Below are positions 49,894 through 54,024 of a DNA stretch of 61,099 nt, in pieces. A model generated the notes under the pieces. It saw only the letters and a list, made by a program, of their open reading frames with translations. It had not been told where the DNA came from and ran no database searches. Origin of the DNA: Gammaproteobacteria bacterium (GTDB lineage: Bacteria > Pseudomonadota > Gammaproteobacteria > JAPPPA01); assembly GCA_030425645.1 (NCBI GenBank), contig JAUHZK010000004.1, forward strand, positions 1 to 61,099. The letters run 5' to 3'. The position numbers and the translations under genes were made by a program. Numbering within the stretch: the first letter of the stretch is position 1; each line of letters opens with the position of its first letter.

Positions 49894-51900
49894 ATGTTCA
49901 ATAAAGTCTTAATCGCCAACCGTGGTGAAATTGCTTGCCGCGTTATTCAGGGCGCACGCTCACTGGGTTACGGCACCGTTGCCGTGTATTCAGATGCTGA
50001 TGCGCAAGCGCGCCATGTGCAACTGGCTGACGAAGCCGTGCATATTGGCCCGGCGGCCTCTGCCGAAAGCTATTTAAGAATTGAAAATATCATTGCCGCC
50101 GCCAAACAAACTGGCGCTGATGCAGTGCACCCTGGTTATGGCTTTTTAGCTGAAAACGCTGACTTCGCCGCAGCCTGTGCCGATGCGGGCATTACCTTTA
50201 TTGGCCCATCGCCAGAAGCCATTACCGTGATGGGTAGCAAGCGGATTTCTAAGGCCAAGATGATTGAAGCGGGGGTGCCTTGCATTCCCGGCAGCAACCC
50301 CAAAGAAGCCCAAGATGATGACGCCCTAATCGAAGCCGCCAAAGGCATGGAATTGCCGGTGATGGTGAAAGCCAGTGCCGGTGGTGGTGGCCGCGGTATG
50401 CGTTTGGTGTTTAATGAGGCGGACCTGCCCGATGCGATTGCCTCGGCGCGGTCAGAGGCAGAAAAGTCTTTTGGTAACGGCGAGTTGATCGTTGAAAAAG
50501 CGGTGGTGAATGCTCGCCACGTAGAGATTCAAGTGTTCGGCGATACCCACGGTGATGCTGTTCACTTAGGCGAGCGTGATTGCTCAGTACAGCGTCGTCA
50601 CCAAAAACTGATTGAAGAAAGCCCATCGCCAGCGGTGGACAAAGCGCTGCGTGCGCGCATGGGCGAGGCCGCTGTAAATGCTGCAAAGGCCGTAAATTAT
50701 GTTGGCGCAGGCACGGTGGAATTCCTGCTGGCGCCAAATGGCGAGTTCTATTTCTTAGAAATGAATACACGCCTACAGGTAGAACACCCGGTCACCGAAT
50801 TGGTTACCGGCGAAGACCTAGTGCAATGGCAGCTACGCGTTGCCGCGGGCGAGCCACTGCCGAAAACCCAAGAACAGATCAGCCTGAATGGCTGGGCGAT
50901 TGAAGTGCGTCTCTGCACCGAAGATGCCGCTAACGACTTTTTACCGCAAACCGGCCCGGTGCTGCATTGGCAGGTTTCCAGTCGCGATGGCCTACGTACT
51001 GACTATGCGCTGCTGAGCGGTGGCGAAGTCAGCCCGTGGTATGACTCCATGCAGGCCAAAGTAATTGCTTACGGCCCGACCCGCGATGCTGCGCGCCGCC
51101 GTTTGATCGCCGCATTGGCTGAAACCCAACTTTACGGTGTTACCAGCAACCGCGACTTCCTTGCCGATATGTTGGCGCATGATGTGTTTGCTGGCGGTGA
51201 TTTCAGTACCGGCTTTATTGAAGAACATTTTGCTGATGGTTTTGATGCCAGCGCAGACTTCCTGCAGCTAGCTACGGCCGCCGCCGCGCTTTACTTAGAT
51301 GATGCCGCCGAGCTACAACAGCAAGCTGGTTTCGATGGCGGCTTGTGTGCCTGGAATAGCGCTGACGGCAATAGCAACGAATTCAAACTTGTCGTGGATG
51401 AGCAAGAACAAGCTCTCCAGCTGACGCCTTTGCGCGACCAAACCGTTAGCGTGACAGATGGTGAAAACACCTTAGAAATTCAGTGGCAAACCTGTGGGCA
51501 AGTCGATGGTGTGGGGCAATTTAGCTATGTCATAGACGAAGACCGCCATACCGCTAGCTATACCCGAAATGGTGCCGAGCTATGGCTGGACGCACCAAAC
51601 GCAAACGGCCTGCAGCGCATTGTTCGCGTTTTAGACAACACGCTAGCGCCACCTGAAAAAGCTGCCGAAGGTTCTGATGGTCGCGTCACCGCGCCAATGG
51701 ATGGCTCCGTCGTTAAAGTCCTAGTCAGCCCTGGCGATAAAGTCGAACTCGGCCAAGCCGTTGCCGCTATGGAAGCCATGAAAATGGAGTTAACCCTAAC
51801 GGCGGGTGTTGCCGGAACCGTTGAAAGCGTCGAAGTCGAAGCCGGCCAAACCGTTAAGCAGCGTCAGCTGCTAGTCGCAATTACGCCCGACGAGAATTAG
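49894..51900 (+). CDS. atuF: Geranyl-CoA carboxylase alpha subunit AtuF (biotin carboxylase + biotin carrier)
   Basis: This 668-residue subunit has a biotin carboxylase domain (1-450) with KASAGGGGRGMR (ATP-binding Gly loop), HVEIQVFGDTHG and EMNTRLQVEHPVTE. A beta-rich linker domain (about 500-590) follows, then a C-terminal biotinyl domain with the AMKM site at Lys630. It pairs with AtuC. LiuD/MccA is the close alternative; the gene order points to geranyl-CoA. The stop codon lies within an 8-bp sequence that recurs beyond the next two genes, and overlaps the convergent channel gene by 4 bp. Confidence 0.88.
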   Translation: MFNKVLIANRGEIACRVIQGARSLGYGTVAVYSDADAQARHVQLADEAVHIGPAASAESYLRIENIIAAAKQTGADAVHPGYGFLAENADFAAACADAGITFIGPSPEAITVMGSKRISKAKMIEAGVPCIPGSNPKEAQDDDALIEAAKGMELPVMVKASAGGGGRGMRLVFNEADLPDAIASARSEAEKSFGNGELIVEKAVVNARHVEIQVFGDTHGDAVHLGERDCSVQRRHQKLIEESPSPAVDKALRARMGEAAVNAAKAVNYVGAGTVEFLLAPNGEFYFLEMNTRLQVEHPVTELVTGEDLVQWQLRVAAGEPLPKTQEQISLNGWAIEVRLCTEDAANDFLPQTGPVLHWQVSSRDGLRTDYALLSGGEVSPWYDSMQAKVIAYGPTRDAARRRLIAALAETQLYGVTSNRDFLADMLAHDVFAGGDFSTGFIEEHFADGFDASADFLQLATAAAALYLDDAAELQQQAGFDGGLCAWNSADGNSNEFKLVVDEQEQALQLTPLRDQTVSVTDGENTLEIQWQTCGQVDGVGQFSYVIDEDRHTASYTRNGAELWLDAPNANGLQRIVRVLDNTLAPPEKAAEGSDGRVTAPMDGSVVKVLVSPGDKVELGQAVAAMEAMKMELTLTAGVAGTVESVEVEAGQTVKQRQLLVAITPDEN

Positions 51901-52640
51901 TGGTTTGCTTTCGGAGAGGAGATTACAAGTTTCGAAACTAATGTTTTCAGCTCCCGAACTTCGACTTTTAGAGATTTTAATTCTTCGTTTTCTTCCTGTG
52001 AGTTGCCAGTTAAGTAGCTTGCAAATATTCCGGCTAGCAGGCCAAAAAGTCCAATGCCAATAAGCATCAGGAAAGTTGCTACCACTCTACCTACAGGTGT
52101 TACCGGGTAAAAATCGCCGTACCCAACAGTGGTGACGGTTACAAATGCCCACCATGTTGCGTCTACGGCATTGTTAATGTTTCCATATTTGTGTTCGGCC
52201 TCAAGTATGGCGATTGCCCCAACTAGCATTGATAGCCCCAATGTCGTGATTCCAATTGTCAATGACGTTGAACGAGGGAAAGCCCCAAGTGTTCTAATCA
52301 GGTGGGCGGAAGCTTTAGCCCCTCTCAATATGCGTATTAGCTGGAACACGCGGAAAAGCCTAGCCCACCTAAGTTGATCTACCATCGGTATACAGGCGAT
52401 CAAATCAATCCAACCCCACTTTAAATATCTAAGGGCGTTGGGCGCTGTTACTAAACGCCGAATAAAATCCACAAAGAAAAAGCCGCAGATAGTTAGGTCT
52501 GCCCATTGAATAATTTGTTTTGATGCGTCGTCTAATGGCGCGACCATCATTATTGTTAGAAGCGCTATTGTTAGAACCGACATGGCCGCAAGGATTAAAT
52601 CCCATAAAGTCGGTGGGGGAGCGGTGTTGGAACTGTTCAT
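51897..52640 (-). CDS. Voltage-gated-type potassium channel protein
   Basis: This is a 247-residue six-helix Kv-like channel. S1 is at about 13-34 and S2 at about 47-64. S4 carries Arg91, Arg94, Arg97, Arg103 and Arg106, roughly every third residue as in voltage sensors. The pore loop holds the K+ selectivity filter TVGYGD at 171-176 (TVTTVGYGDFYPVT) and S6 is at about 186-210. The tail (about 214-240) is predicted coiled coil. The ATG overlaps the stop of the upstream nuclease-like gene (TAATG). Its base composition is visibly lower in GC than the atu genes. It is known as a K+ pore family; a link to defence is inference. Confidence 0.9.
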   Translation of the reverse strand: MNSSNTAPPPTLWDLILAAMSVLTIALLTIMMVAPLDDASKQIIQWADLTICGFFFVDFIRRLVTAPNALRYLKWGWIDLIACIPMVDQLRWARLFRVFQLIRILRGAKASAHLIRTLGAFPRSTSLTIGITTLGLSMLVGAIAILEAEHKYGNINNAVDATWWAFVTVTTVGYGDFYPVTPVGRVVATFLMLIGIGLFGLLAGIFASYLTGNSQEENEELKSLKVEVRELKTLVSKLVISSPKANH

Positions 52641-53950
52641 TACGAATCGCCGCTAGGCGGTGGGTTGTCGTCTGTTTGTTTGATCTTGGGTGGCGGAGCT
52701 TGCCATGCAGAAATGTATTGGCCGGCTTCGGCGTAGAAGGTGACAACTGAATCTTCGAGAGCGGCCCCAAAGTTGCTGACTTGGCTAAACTTGCCACCCA
52801 GATCATTTGTATATCTGACTTCAAATGAACTGGGCATTAGGCCTGGCCGCTCATCAGAGTGGATAGTGGGGTCGTCGATGGAGTCAATCACAGGAAATAT
52901 AGTTTGTTGAGATCGACCAGGCCATCGGACGGCGAGGTAAATGTCTCTTGTGTCACAGTTCTTTAACTGATTGGTTAACCAGCGAATGCTGGCCTTAGAT
53001 TGTTTTTTATCTTTAGGGGCAGGCGTTTCCATCGCGACGGTTACGCACCGGGTTTTTAGGTCGGCTGTAACGTTTATGGGGCCAGCAGCATCAGGAACTT
53101 TTAGGCGAGATGTGAGAGACGCTTCTTTGTATAGCATCTCGGTAGCATGATTGATCTTTGCGCTAGGGTTTTTGCGTTCACTTGGCGTCAAGAGTACTGA
53201 CACATTTAAACCAAGACGCTCACTCATAGACAGGCTTACGCTTCGGATAAGTTCGTACCAGTCGGCGACTATTTCCTGAGCTTCTTCGGACGACTTCTGA
53301 ATACTTTTGCCTTGCTGAACAACTTTTATCGAATCACTCCATGAGCCCCTCATTCGGGTAAAGCCCACTACTCCAGAGGAGTCATGTGACAGGTACCTTA
53401 CAAGCTCGTTAAGCATGTAGGCTTGGTCTGGGTCGGAAATGCTTGATTGGCTGATTTGGATTTTCGCTTCAGCTTGTAGATATGACCAAGACCAATGAAA
53501 TAACTTTGTGGACCTAAGCTTATGGCCGCTAATTTTTATGGGGGAATGGGTTGCGTCGCAGACAAAGTCATTTGAAATCGTGATCACGCAGTCAGCGCCA
53601 ACGACTTTACAAATATCCAGATAGCTTTCCACTTGCTTAGCCTTGAGCTTTTCCTTCTTTACTTTTGCTTCGATTAACGCAATCCATTTTCGTTTGCCAT
53701 TGGTTACGCATATCATTCCGTCAGGCCGGTCTTGTATGTTTTTTAGGCGCTTGTCGTTAAAAACCAACTCGGTAAAACAAGAAACTTTTGCCCGACTACC
53801 AATTGGTGCGCCTAGTGGCTTTAGCAGAGTTTCAGCGTATTCACGAACGGCTGAGATAACGGCTAAAGTTGTAGAGGTCGTCTTTAGCTCTGTTTGTTGA
53901 GCGGTGGGAATTAGTCGAGCTTCCTCGCCTCGTGAAGTTGATGGCAACAT
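52640..53950 (-). CDS. PD-(D/E)XK nuclease-like protein of unknown family
   Basis: This is a 436-residue protein. Residues about 55-125 show the hallmark acidic Glu61 (FTELVF), Asp77 in RPDGMI, the Glu94-Ala-Lys96 pair in ALIEAKVKKE and a RecB/Cas4-like QxxxY at Gln106-Tyr110. This order (E, D, ExK, QxxxY) fits a PD-(D/E)XK nuclease. The remaining 300 residues (about 130-430) have no recognised domain; they end in a Pro-rich tail (PPPKIKQTDDNPPP). GAGGAAG precedes the start. It is translationally coupled to the K+ channel. No export signal is present. Confidence 0.7.
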   Translation of the reverse strand: MLPSTSRGEEARLIPTAQQTELKTTSTTLAVISAVREYAETLLKPLGAPIGSRAKVSCFTELVFNDKRLKNIQDRPDGMICVTNGKRKWIALIEAKVKKEKLKAKQVESYLDICKVVGADCVITISNDFVCDATHSPIKISGHKLRSTKLFHWSWSYLQAEAKIQISQSSISDPDQAYMLNELVRYLSHDSSGVVGFTRMRGSWSDSIKVVQQGKSIQKSSEEAQEIVADWYELIRSVSLSMSERLGLNVSVLLTPSERKNPSAKINHATEMLYKEASLTSRLKVPDAAGPINVTADLKTRCVTVAMETPAPKDKKQSKASIRWLTNQLKNCDTRDIYLAVRWPGRSQQTIFPVIDSIDDPTIHSDERPGLMPSSFEVRYTNDLGGKFSQVSNFGAALEDSVVTFYAEAGQYISAWQAPPPKIKQTDDNPPPSGDS

Positions 53951-54024
53951 GTCTTCCTCAAATGTTATTAATATAGTTTGTTTACTTTTTATCCAATTAG
54001 TGAGAACACGTCAAATAGAGCGAT

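Follow-up and report, generated by a model that had tools for sequence, protein, structure and literature searches.

A PD-(D/E)XK nuclease-like protein and a voltage-gated K+ channel encoded together in a gammaproteobacterial insert: a candidate phage-exclusion pair

A two-gene insert between a carboxylase gene and rsuA

The window analysed here, a stretch of 61,099 nucleotides from a Gammaproteobacteria bacterium (contig JAUHZK010000004.1), carries two adjacent genes on the minus strand, both at the positions assigned to them by a first-pass annotation of the same sequence. The locus comprises the following features:

51901..54024, no strand assigned: inserted cassette of exactly two genes, delimited by the empty site in a sister species (G001:C259, L129)
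52640..53950, minus strand: gene 1, PD-(D/E)XK nuclease-like protein with a YbjN/TY-chaperone-like C-terminal domain, 436 aa (open reading frame, AF2 model, VIA)
52638..52642, minus strand: TAATG stop/start overlap of gene 1 and gene 2, one shared base (sequence)
51897..52640, minus strand: gene 2, Kv-type K+ channel of the PHROG 7872 type, 247 aa (Pfam, PHROGs)

The cassette is flanked on one side by a gene for the alpha subunit of a biotin-dependent carboxylase (biotin-carboxylase-alpha, atuF-like) and on the other by rsuA. In the one congener compared (G001), the site is empty, and the stop codon of the carboxylase-alpha gene is followed by approximately 30 bp and the start of rsuA. Hence, the two genes were either gained jointly in the window or lost jointly in G001, and gain is favoured because few genomes of the class carry the nuclease (12 of 369 sampled). 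The mobility proposed in the first-pass annotation, on the grounds of low GC content and insertion between atuF and rsuA, is borne out by this empty site and by GC fractions of 0.471 (nuclease) and 0.452 (channel) vs 0.51–0.55 in neighbouring genes. A search of the insert for terminal repeats and target-site duplications gave nothing convincing. Overall, a mobile two-gene insert is supported. The stop codon of the nuclease gene does overlap the start of the channel gene, as had been claimed, with one base common to both in TAATG, and the last bases of the carboxylase gene are in turn shared with the stop of the channel gene.

A predicted restriction-fold enzyme with a chaperone-like domain

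The features of the gene 1 protein, all encoded on the minus strand, are as follows:

53381..53899, minus strand: PD-(D/E)XK fold region, residues 18-190 (VIA)
53888..53890, minus strand: E21, conserved glutamate in helix alpha-1 (invariant in 69 sequences)
53720..53725, minus strand: P76-D77 motif (invariant in 69 sequences)
53663..53671, minus strand: E94-A-K96 catalytic motif (E and K invariant in 69 sequences)
53621..53635, minus strand: Q106xxxY110 motif (invariant in 69 sequences)
52694..53362, minus strand: YbjN/type III secretion chaperone-like domain, residues 197-419 (VIA)

The nuclease signature read from the sequence earlier (E61, D77, E94-A-K96 and Q106xxxY110) lies where it was placed: across 69 aligned relatives of gene 1, no variation is seen at R75-P76-D77, E94, K96, Q106 or Y110, and E61 occurs in 68. 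The residues named were therefore correct, although the list was incomplete, as it lacked the equally invariant E21. In an AlphaFold (AF2) model of the protein (pLDDT 89.4), these residues fall on a PD-(D/E)XK core with the alpha-beta-beta-beta-alpha-beta order, with E61 in beta-1, D77 just before beta-2, E94-K96 ending beta-3, and the helix after it carrying Q106. Whole-fold VIA matches of residues 18-190 to restriction-fold structures ranged from Z 8.5 to approximately 5 (AF1548, 8.5; PaqCI, 7.5; Can2, 7.2; Card1 and R.BspD6I, both 7.1; FokI, 6.6; McrBC, 5.5; Shedu, 5.3), and Hjc was also matched. The protein also carries the catalytic set of the PD-(D/E)XK superfamily, D...(D/E)xK plus a conserved Glu and Gln. 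Weak matches to VRR_NUC, Mrr_cat and PDDEXK_4 were found in 24, 16 and 8 of the 69 family members, respectively. The gene 1 protein had no model match in the copies of Pfam, NCBIfam, PHROGs and PADLOC searched, and none of the solved structures was matched in a sequence-profile search. Model and conservation together support a PD-(D/E)XK fold with an intact catalytic set, and nuclease activity is predicted.

The C-terminal part had been described as being of no recognisable family. This holds for the sequence of approximately 240 residues (there was no Pfam match to YbjN or to type III secretion system [T3SS] chaperones), but not for the fold. Residues 197-419 resemble YbjN and T3SS chaperones as part of the full-length model and also when modelled as an isolated domain (pLDDT 91.8). 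The best 24 VIA rows for the domain were nearly all chaperone-like, chiefly YbjN, AmyR, Spa15, SicP, SycE and ExsC (Z 5.0–7.7, which is moderate), and unrelated folds ranked below them. A comparison of the domain with a viral fold library gave nothing significant. As modelled, the domain thus resembles a chaperone-like fold of the peptide-binding type.

A Kv-type channel with an intact selectivity filter

Gene 2 encodes the following features:

52323..52370, minus strand: S4 voltage-sensor arginines, R91-R106 (sequence)
52113..52130, minus strand: TVGYGD selectivity filter, residues 171-176 (sequence; invariant in phage relatives)
51924..51989, minus strand: C-terminal heptad-like (coiled-coil) tail (sequence)

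The protein matched Ion_trans (1.1e-21) and Ion_trans_2 (1.1e-17) in Pfam, and phrog_7872 at 2.3e-42. Arginines R91, R94, R97, R103 and R106 of S4 are present and, like the filter, invariant among phage relatives, and the C-terminal tail is heptad-like, confirming the initial reading of a Kv-type channel with intact TVGYGD, S4 arginines and a C-terminal coiled coil. Gene 2 can accordingly be placed in the voltage-gated 6TM family, and voltage-dependent K+ conduction is predicted from its sequence. The nearest solved relatives by sequence are KvLm, Kv1.3 (Kv1) and KvAP. Bacterial Kv channels have served as structural models for decades, and little is known of their purpose. Close relatives of the window channel are rare in the class (three other genomes of 369), and the two of these three that were inspected are solitary chromosomal genes (L230, L231).

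Distribution and contexts of the nuclease family

Relatives of gene 1 occupy at least 407 loci in GTDB representatives. They form an unnamed, widespread nuclease-chaperone family, which we define here and which is absent from the copies of Pfam, NCBIfam, PHROGs and PADLOC searched. The majority of homologues occur singly, in unrelated gene contexts, and many carriers are halophiles or marine. One relative (L004, G035) is split into two reading frames and is an apparent pseudogene. On Rhodococcus and Streptomyces plasmids, a TerD domain precedes the nuclease-chaperone unit in one fused protein; these fusions share the unit with gene 1 (28–30% identity) but differ in that N-terminal TerD domain and in the lack of a channel. 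Upstream of the fusion on one Rhodococcus plasmid (L006:1-6248) are genes for ThiF/E1-like, Mov34/JAB and DUF6602 proteins. Two viral or phage contigs (L179, L180) also carry the nuclease, with HNH, terminase and portal genes nearby in one of them. In phage and plasmid databases, the nuclease was found in no phage record, and plasmid copies were TerD-fused only.

Such TerD fusions, along with the many halophilic or marine carriers, would suit a module for stress response or ion homeostasis with no link to phages (e.g., a Ter-linked one), in which the channel would regulate K+ after DNA or envelope damage. Both gene families reside in phage genomes, however, and we regard this explanation as quite improbable.

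The pair had been likened to defence systems, and the presence of known defence genes nearby was put forward as a check. Numbers of PADLOC families were similar close to the nuclease (68 families, 106 genes) and distal to it (50 families, 102 genes), with no clear enrichment, and a defence-island setting was therefore dropped. An Aga-type SIR2 protein (L092), PDC-S37 (L049) and helicases are nonetheless found among the neighbours, and an AriA-like ATPase adjoins one nuclease-channel pair (L189). In a scan of the nuclease and channel with PADLOC 2.0 (2023), 0 families matched at E≤1; neither KwaA/KwaB nor ZorA-D was among the matches.

Recurrent but facultative pairing with a channel

Nuclease neighbours were surveyed at the best 80 of the at least 407 GTDB loci, in 250 Halomonadaceae and in the class sample. 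A channel adjoins the nuclease at four of these best 80 loci (Zobellella, Natronospirillum and two Litchfieldella). Among the Halomonadaceae, 18 carry the nuclease and 5 of the 18 have the channel, which adds three distinct genomes. The count of co-occurrence thus shows that pairing recurs, with an adjacent Kv channel in seven more of the species sampled (Halomonadaceae, Zobellella and Natronospirillum). None of the other 11 nuclease carriers in the class sample has a channel neighbour. In a test of nuclease-channel adjacency, the naive P value was 0.0019, and Fisher's P was a borderline 0.057 when the pairs were collapsed to two independent lineages.

In all seven recurrent pairs, the channel lies directly upstream of the nuclease, the opposite of the gene order in the window, and belongs to another Kv subfamily (26–29% identity to the window channel). 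The two genes overlap by 4 nt or lie a few bases apart. The paired channels are basal in their clade, as a grade, and three unpaired ones nest within it; sequence identities among paired channels are correlated with those among their nucleases (Mantel r 0.92, P 0.0036). The guaA gene is a site where mobile and integrative elements are known to insert (PMC5704250); there, the channel has been lost by internal deletion at L184 and L185 (a trace remains in L055), and C-terminal relics of it immediately precede a nuclease gene that is still intact. The opposite gene order, the spread over three families and these relics indicate that pairing arose at least twice, persisted and can be lost.

The close tie initially drawn between the two proteins does not amount to an obligate pair: homologues lying mostly apart had been named at the outset as a refuting outcome, and this is what the nuclease relatives show. 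As the nuclease family is mostly solitary, the pair is facultative, and in most genomes the nuclease can evidently do without the channel. This invites the explanation that the nuclease is a self-sufficient enzyme of defence or DNA processing, with the channel as a hitch-hiker or a separate exclusion gene sharing the operon. The many lone homologues, the loss of the channel at guaA beside an intact nuclease and the channel-less TerD fusions all fit such an enzyme. Two independent pairings with overlapping frames or near-zero gaps, the co-divergence of paired genes and the coupling of a PHROG 7872-type channel to another nuclease in phages (see below) argue against it, and we consider a solitary nuclease possible, as a minority reading.

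Channel relatives beside repressors of temperate phages

A PHROG 7872-type channel gene is found shortly downstream of a repressor gene (CI/S24 or Mu type) on three phage contigs (L217, L218 and L219), and an integrase is encoded close by in the first two. In L217 (4093-5750), a gene for a BRCT-domain protein (weak Pfam match) separates the Kv channel from the CI repressor; it adjoins the integrase, and its product is a possible channel partner. The temperate phages PLE2, JNU_P5 and Dulem virus 33 likewise encode more distant Kv-like channels (28–31% identity) at this repressor-proximal position, and in PLE2 and Dulem virus 33 an annotated integrase follows downstream. One phage-contig relative (L228:3830-4471) has a degenerate filter, SLITGYSG, which suggests a non-conducting or non-selective descendant. 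These contexts place the PHROG 7872 channel type within the lysogeny modules of temperate phages and support a phage link for it. The position directly downstream of a CI-type repressor is seen in these phage-borne relatives and absent at the window locus.

A second nuclease family, of the GmrSD_C type, is coupled to the PHROG 7872-type channel. In the phage contigs L216 and L222, the channel gene overlaps by 4 nt an unrelated GmrSD_C-type nuclease gene beside a repressor; the contigs are related (79% identity between the nucleases), and we therefore count them as one event. The nuclease of these loci (L216:2853-4387, L222:1088-2616) is a GmrSD_C/HNH endonuclease with a signal-peptide-like start, and the adjacent repressor is of the CI/S24 type. 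This channel-HNH pair is a candidate for a separate superinfection-exclusion system.

The rexAB genes of lambda and the Pseudomonas putida Rex system occupy the same repressor-proximal position, with RexA as the sensor and RexB as the membrane effector (PMC12894663). By analogy, the window pair might work strictly as Rex does, with the nuclease-like protein sensing phage replication intermediates and the channel killing by K+ efflux and growth arrest; the rexB-like position of the channel type in temperate phages and the roles of RexA and RexB are in keeping with this. Nonetheless, the fully conserved catalytic set implies that the protein is probably not a mere binder, the expected effect of a K+-selective filter is hyperpolarisation instead of depolarisation, and many relatives dispense with the channel. 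We find a strict Rex-type mechanism unlikely.

Proposed function

The joint insertion, the invariant catalytic set, the fold, the recurrent pairing and the phage residence of the channel type support reading the two genes as a phage-exclusion pair. Against this stand the few channel neighbours, the borderline P value, the lack of clear PADLOC enrichment and the solitary channels L230 and L231. On balance, and largely by analogy, we give roughly even chances to a mobile, lysogeny-style exclusion device, similar to Rex or Kiwa and not yet described; no described nuclease-Kv pair was found in the open-licence literature. The defence role had previously been drawn from gene pairing; it has gained the phage link of the channel type, but is still an inference, with no clear enrichment of PADLOC neighbours.

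In such an exclusion pair, an inner-membrane component and a cytosolic nucleic-acid component would be laid out as in RexAB or Kiwa, and phage DNA entry or replication would cause both proteins to act together at the membrane. The voltage-sensing channel would most likely sense membrane disturbance, or else anchor or regulate the complex. The nuclease would attack nucleic acid, steered by the chaperone-like domain through recognition of a partner or of a phage peptide, and K+ efflux could possibly add growth arrest.

Membrane depolarisation, to which the pair had at first been linked, was rejected as the effector step. TVGYGD is the signature of K+ selectivity, and opening of such a channel should drive K+ efflux toward the K+ equilibrium potential and so hyperpolarise the cell; the filter predicts K+ efflux or voltage sensing. 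As a voltage sensor is suited to detecting or responding to the membrane disturbance of phage entry, a sensor role is preferred, and a division of labour between a sensor or anchor channel and a nuclease effector appears likelier.

More tentatively, the channel might sense phage entry and control a dedicated nuclease, which would constitute a new class of antiphage system; such devices would have come together more than once, from differing channels and nucleases, with temperate phages and integrative elements as their vehicles. We hold this broader proposal to be somewhat doubtful. Recurrent Kv-nuclease coupling and the location of such channels among phage lysogeny genes would give at least one bacterial Kv lineage a concrete function, namely, phage exclusion, and could reveal electrical sensing of infection.

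Comparison with known systems

KvLm (Listeria Lmo2059) and KvAP are among the closest solved K+ channels to gene 2 by sequence, and neither is known to be paired with a nuclease. On the side of gene 1, the co-occurrence of YbjN/T3SS-chaperone-like and REase-fold domains recalls the TY-chaperone conflict systems, in which TY-chaperone and REase domains have been reported together in predicted antiviral neighbourhoods (PMC9503650); here, however, one polypeptide carries both domains and has a channel partner.

RexAB (lambda; P. putida P1 prophage) is likewise a two-gene module of a membrane protein and a nucleic-acid-binding protein, and shares with the window's channel type the location directly downstream of CI-like repressors in phages. 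The window pair instead combines a 6TM Kv channel, K+ filter included, with a PD-(D/E)XK enzyme that appears to be catalytic, and in Pfam and PADLOC scans no similarity to RexA or RexB was detected, ion-channel families being the only matches. In Zorya, Kiwa and SNIPE, a membrane component is coupled with one that targets DNA (PMC12904381, PMC13190303), as would be the case in the pair described here. Kiwa (KwaA/KwaB) and Zorya differ in that PADLOC matches neither window protein and the membrane part here is a voltage-gated K+ channel, while SNIPE is a single protein with a GIY-YIG nuclease. Zorya, Kiwa and SNIPE provide the logic for coupling a membrane component to a DNA-targeting one, and RexAB provides the genomic position.
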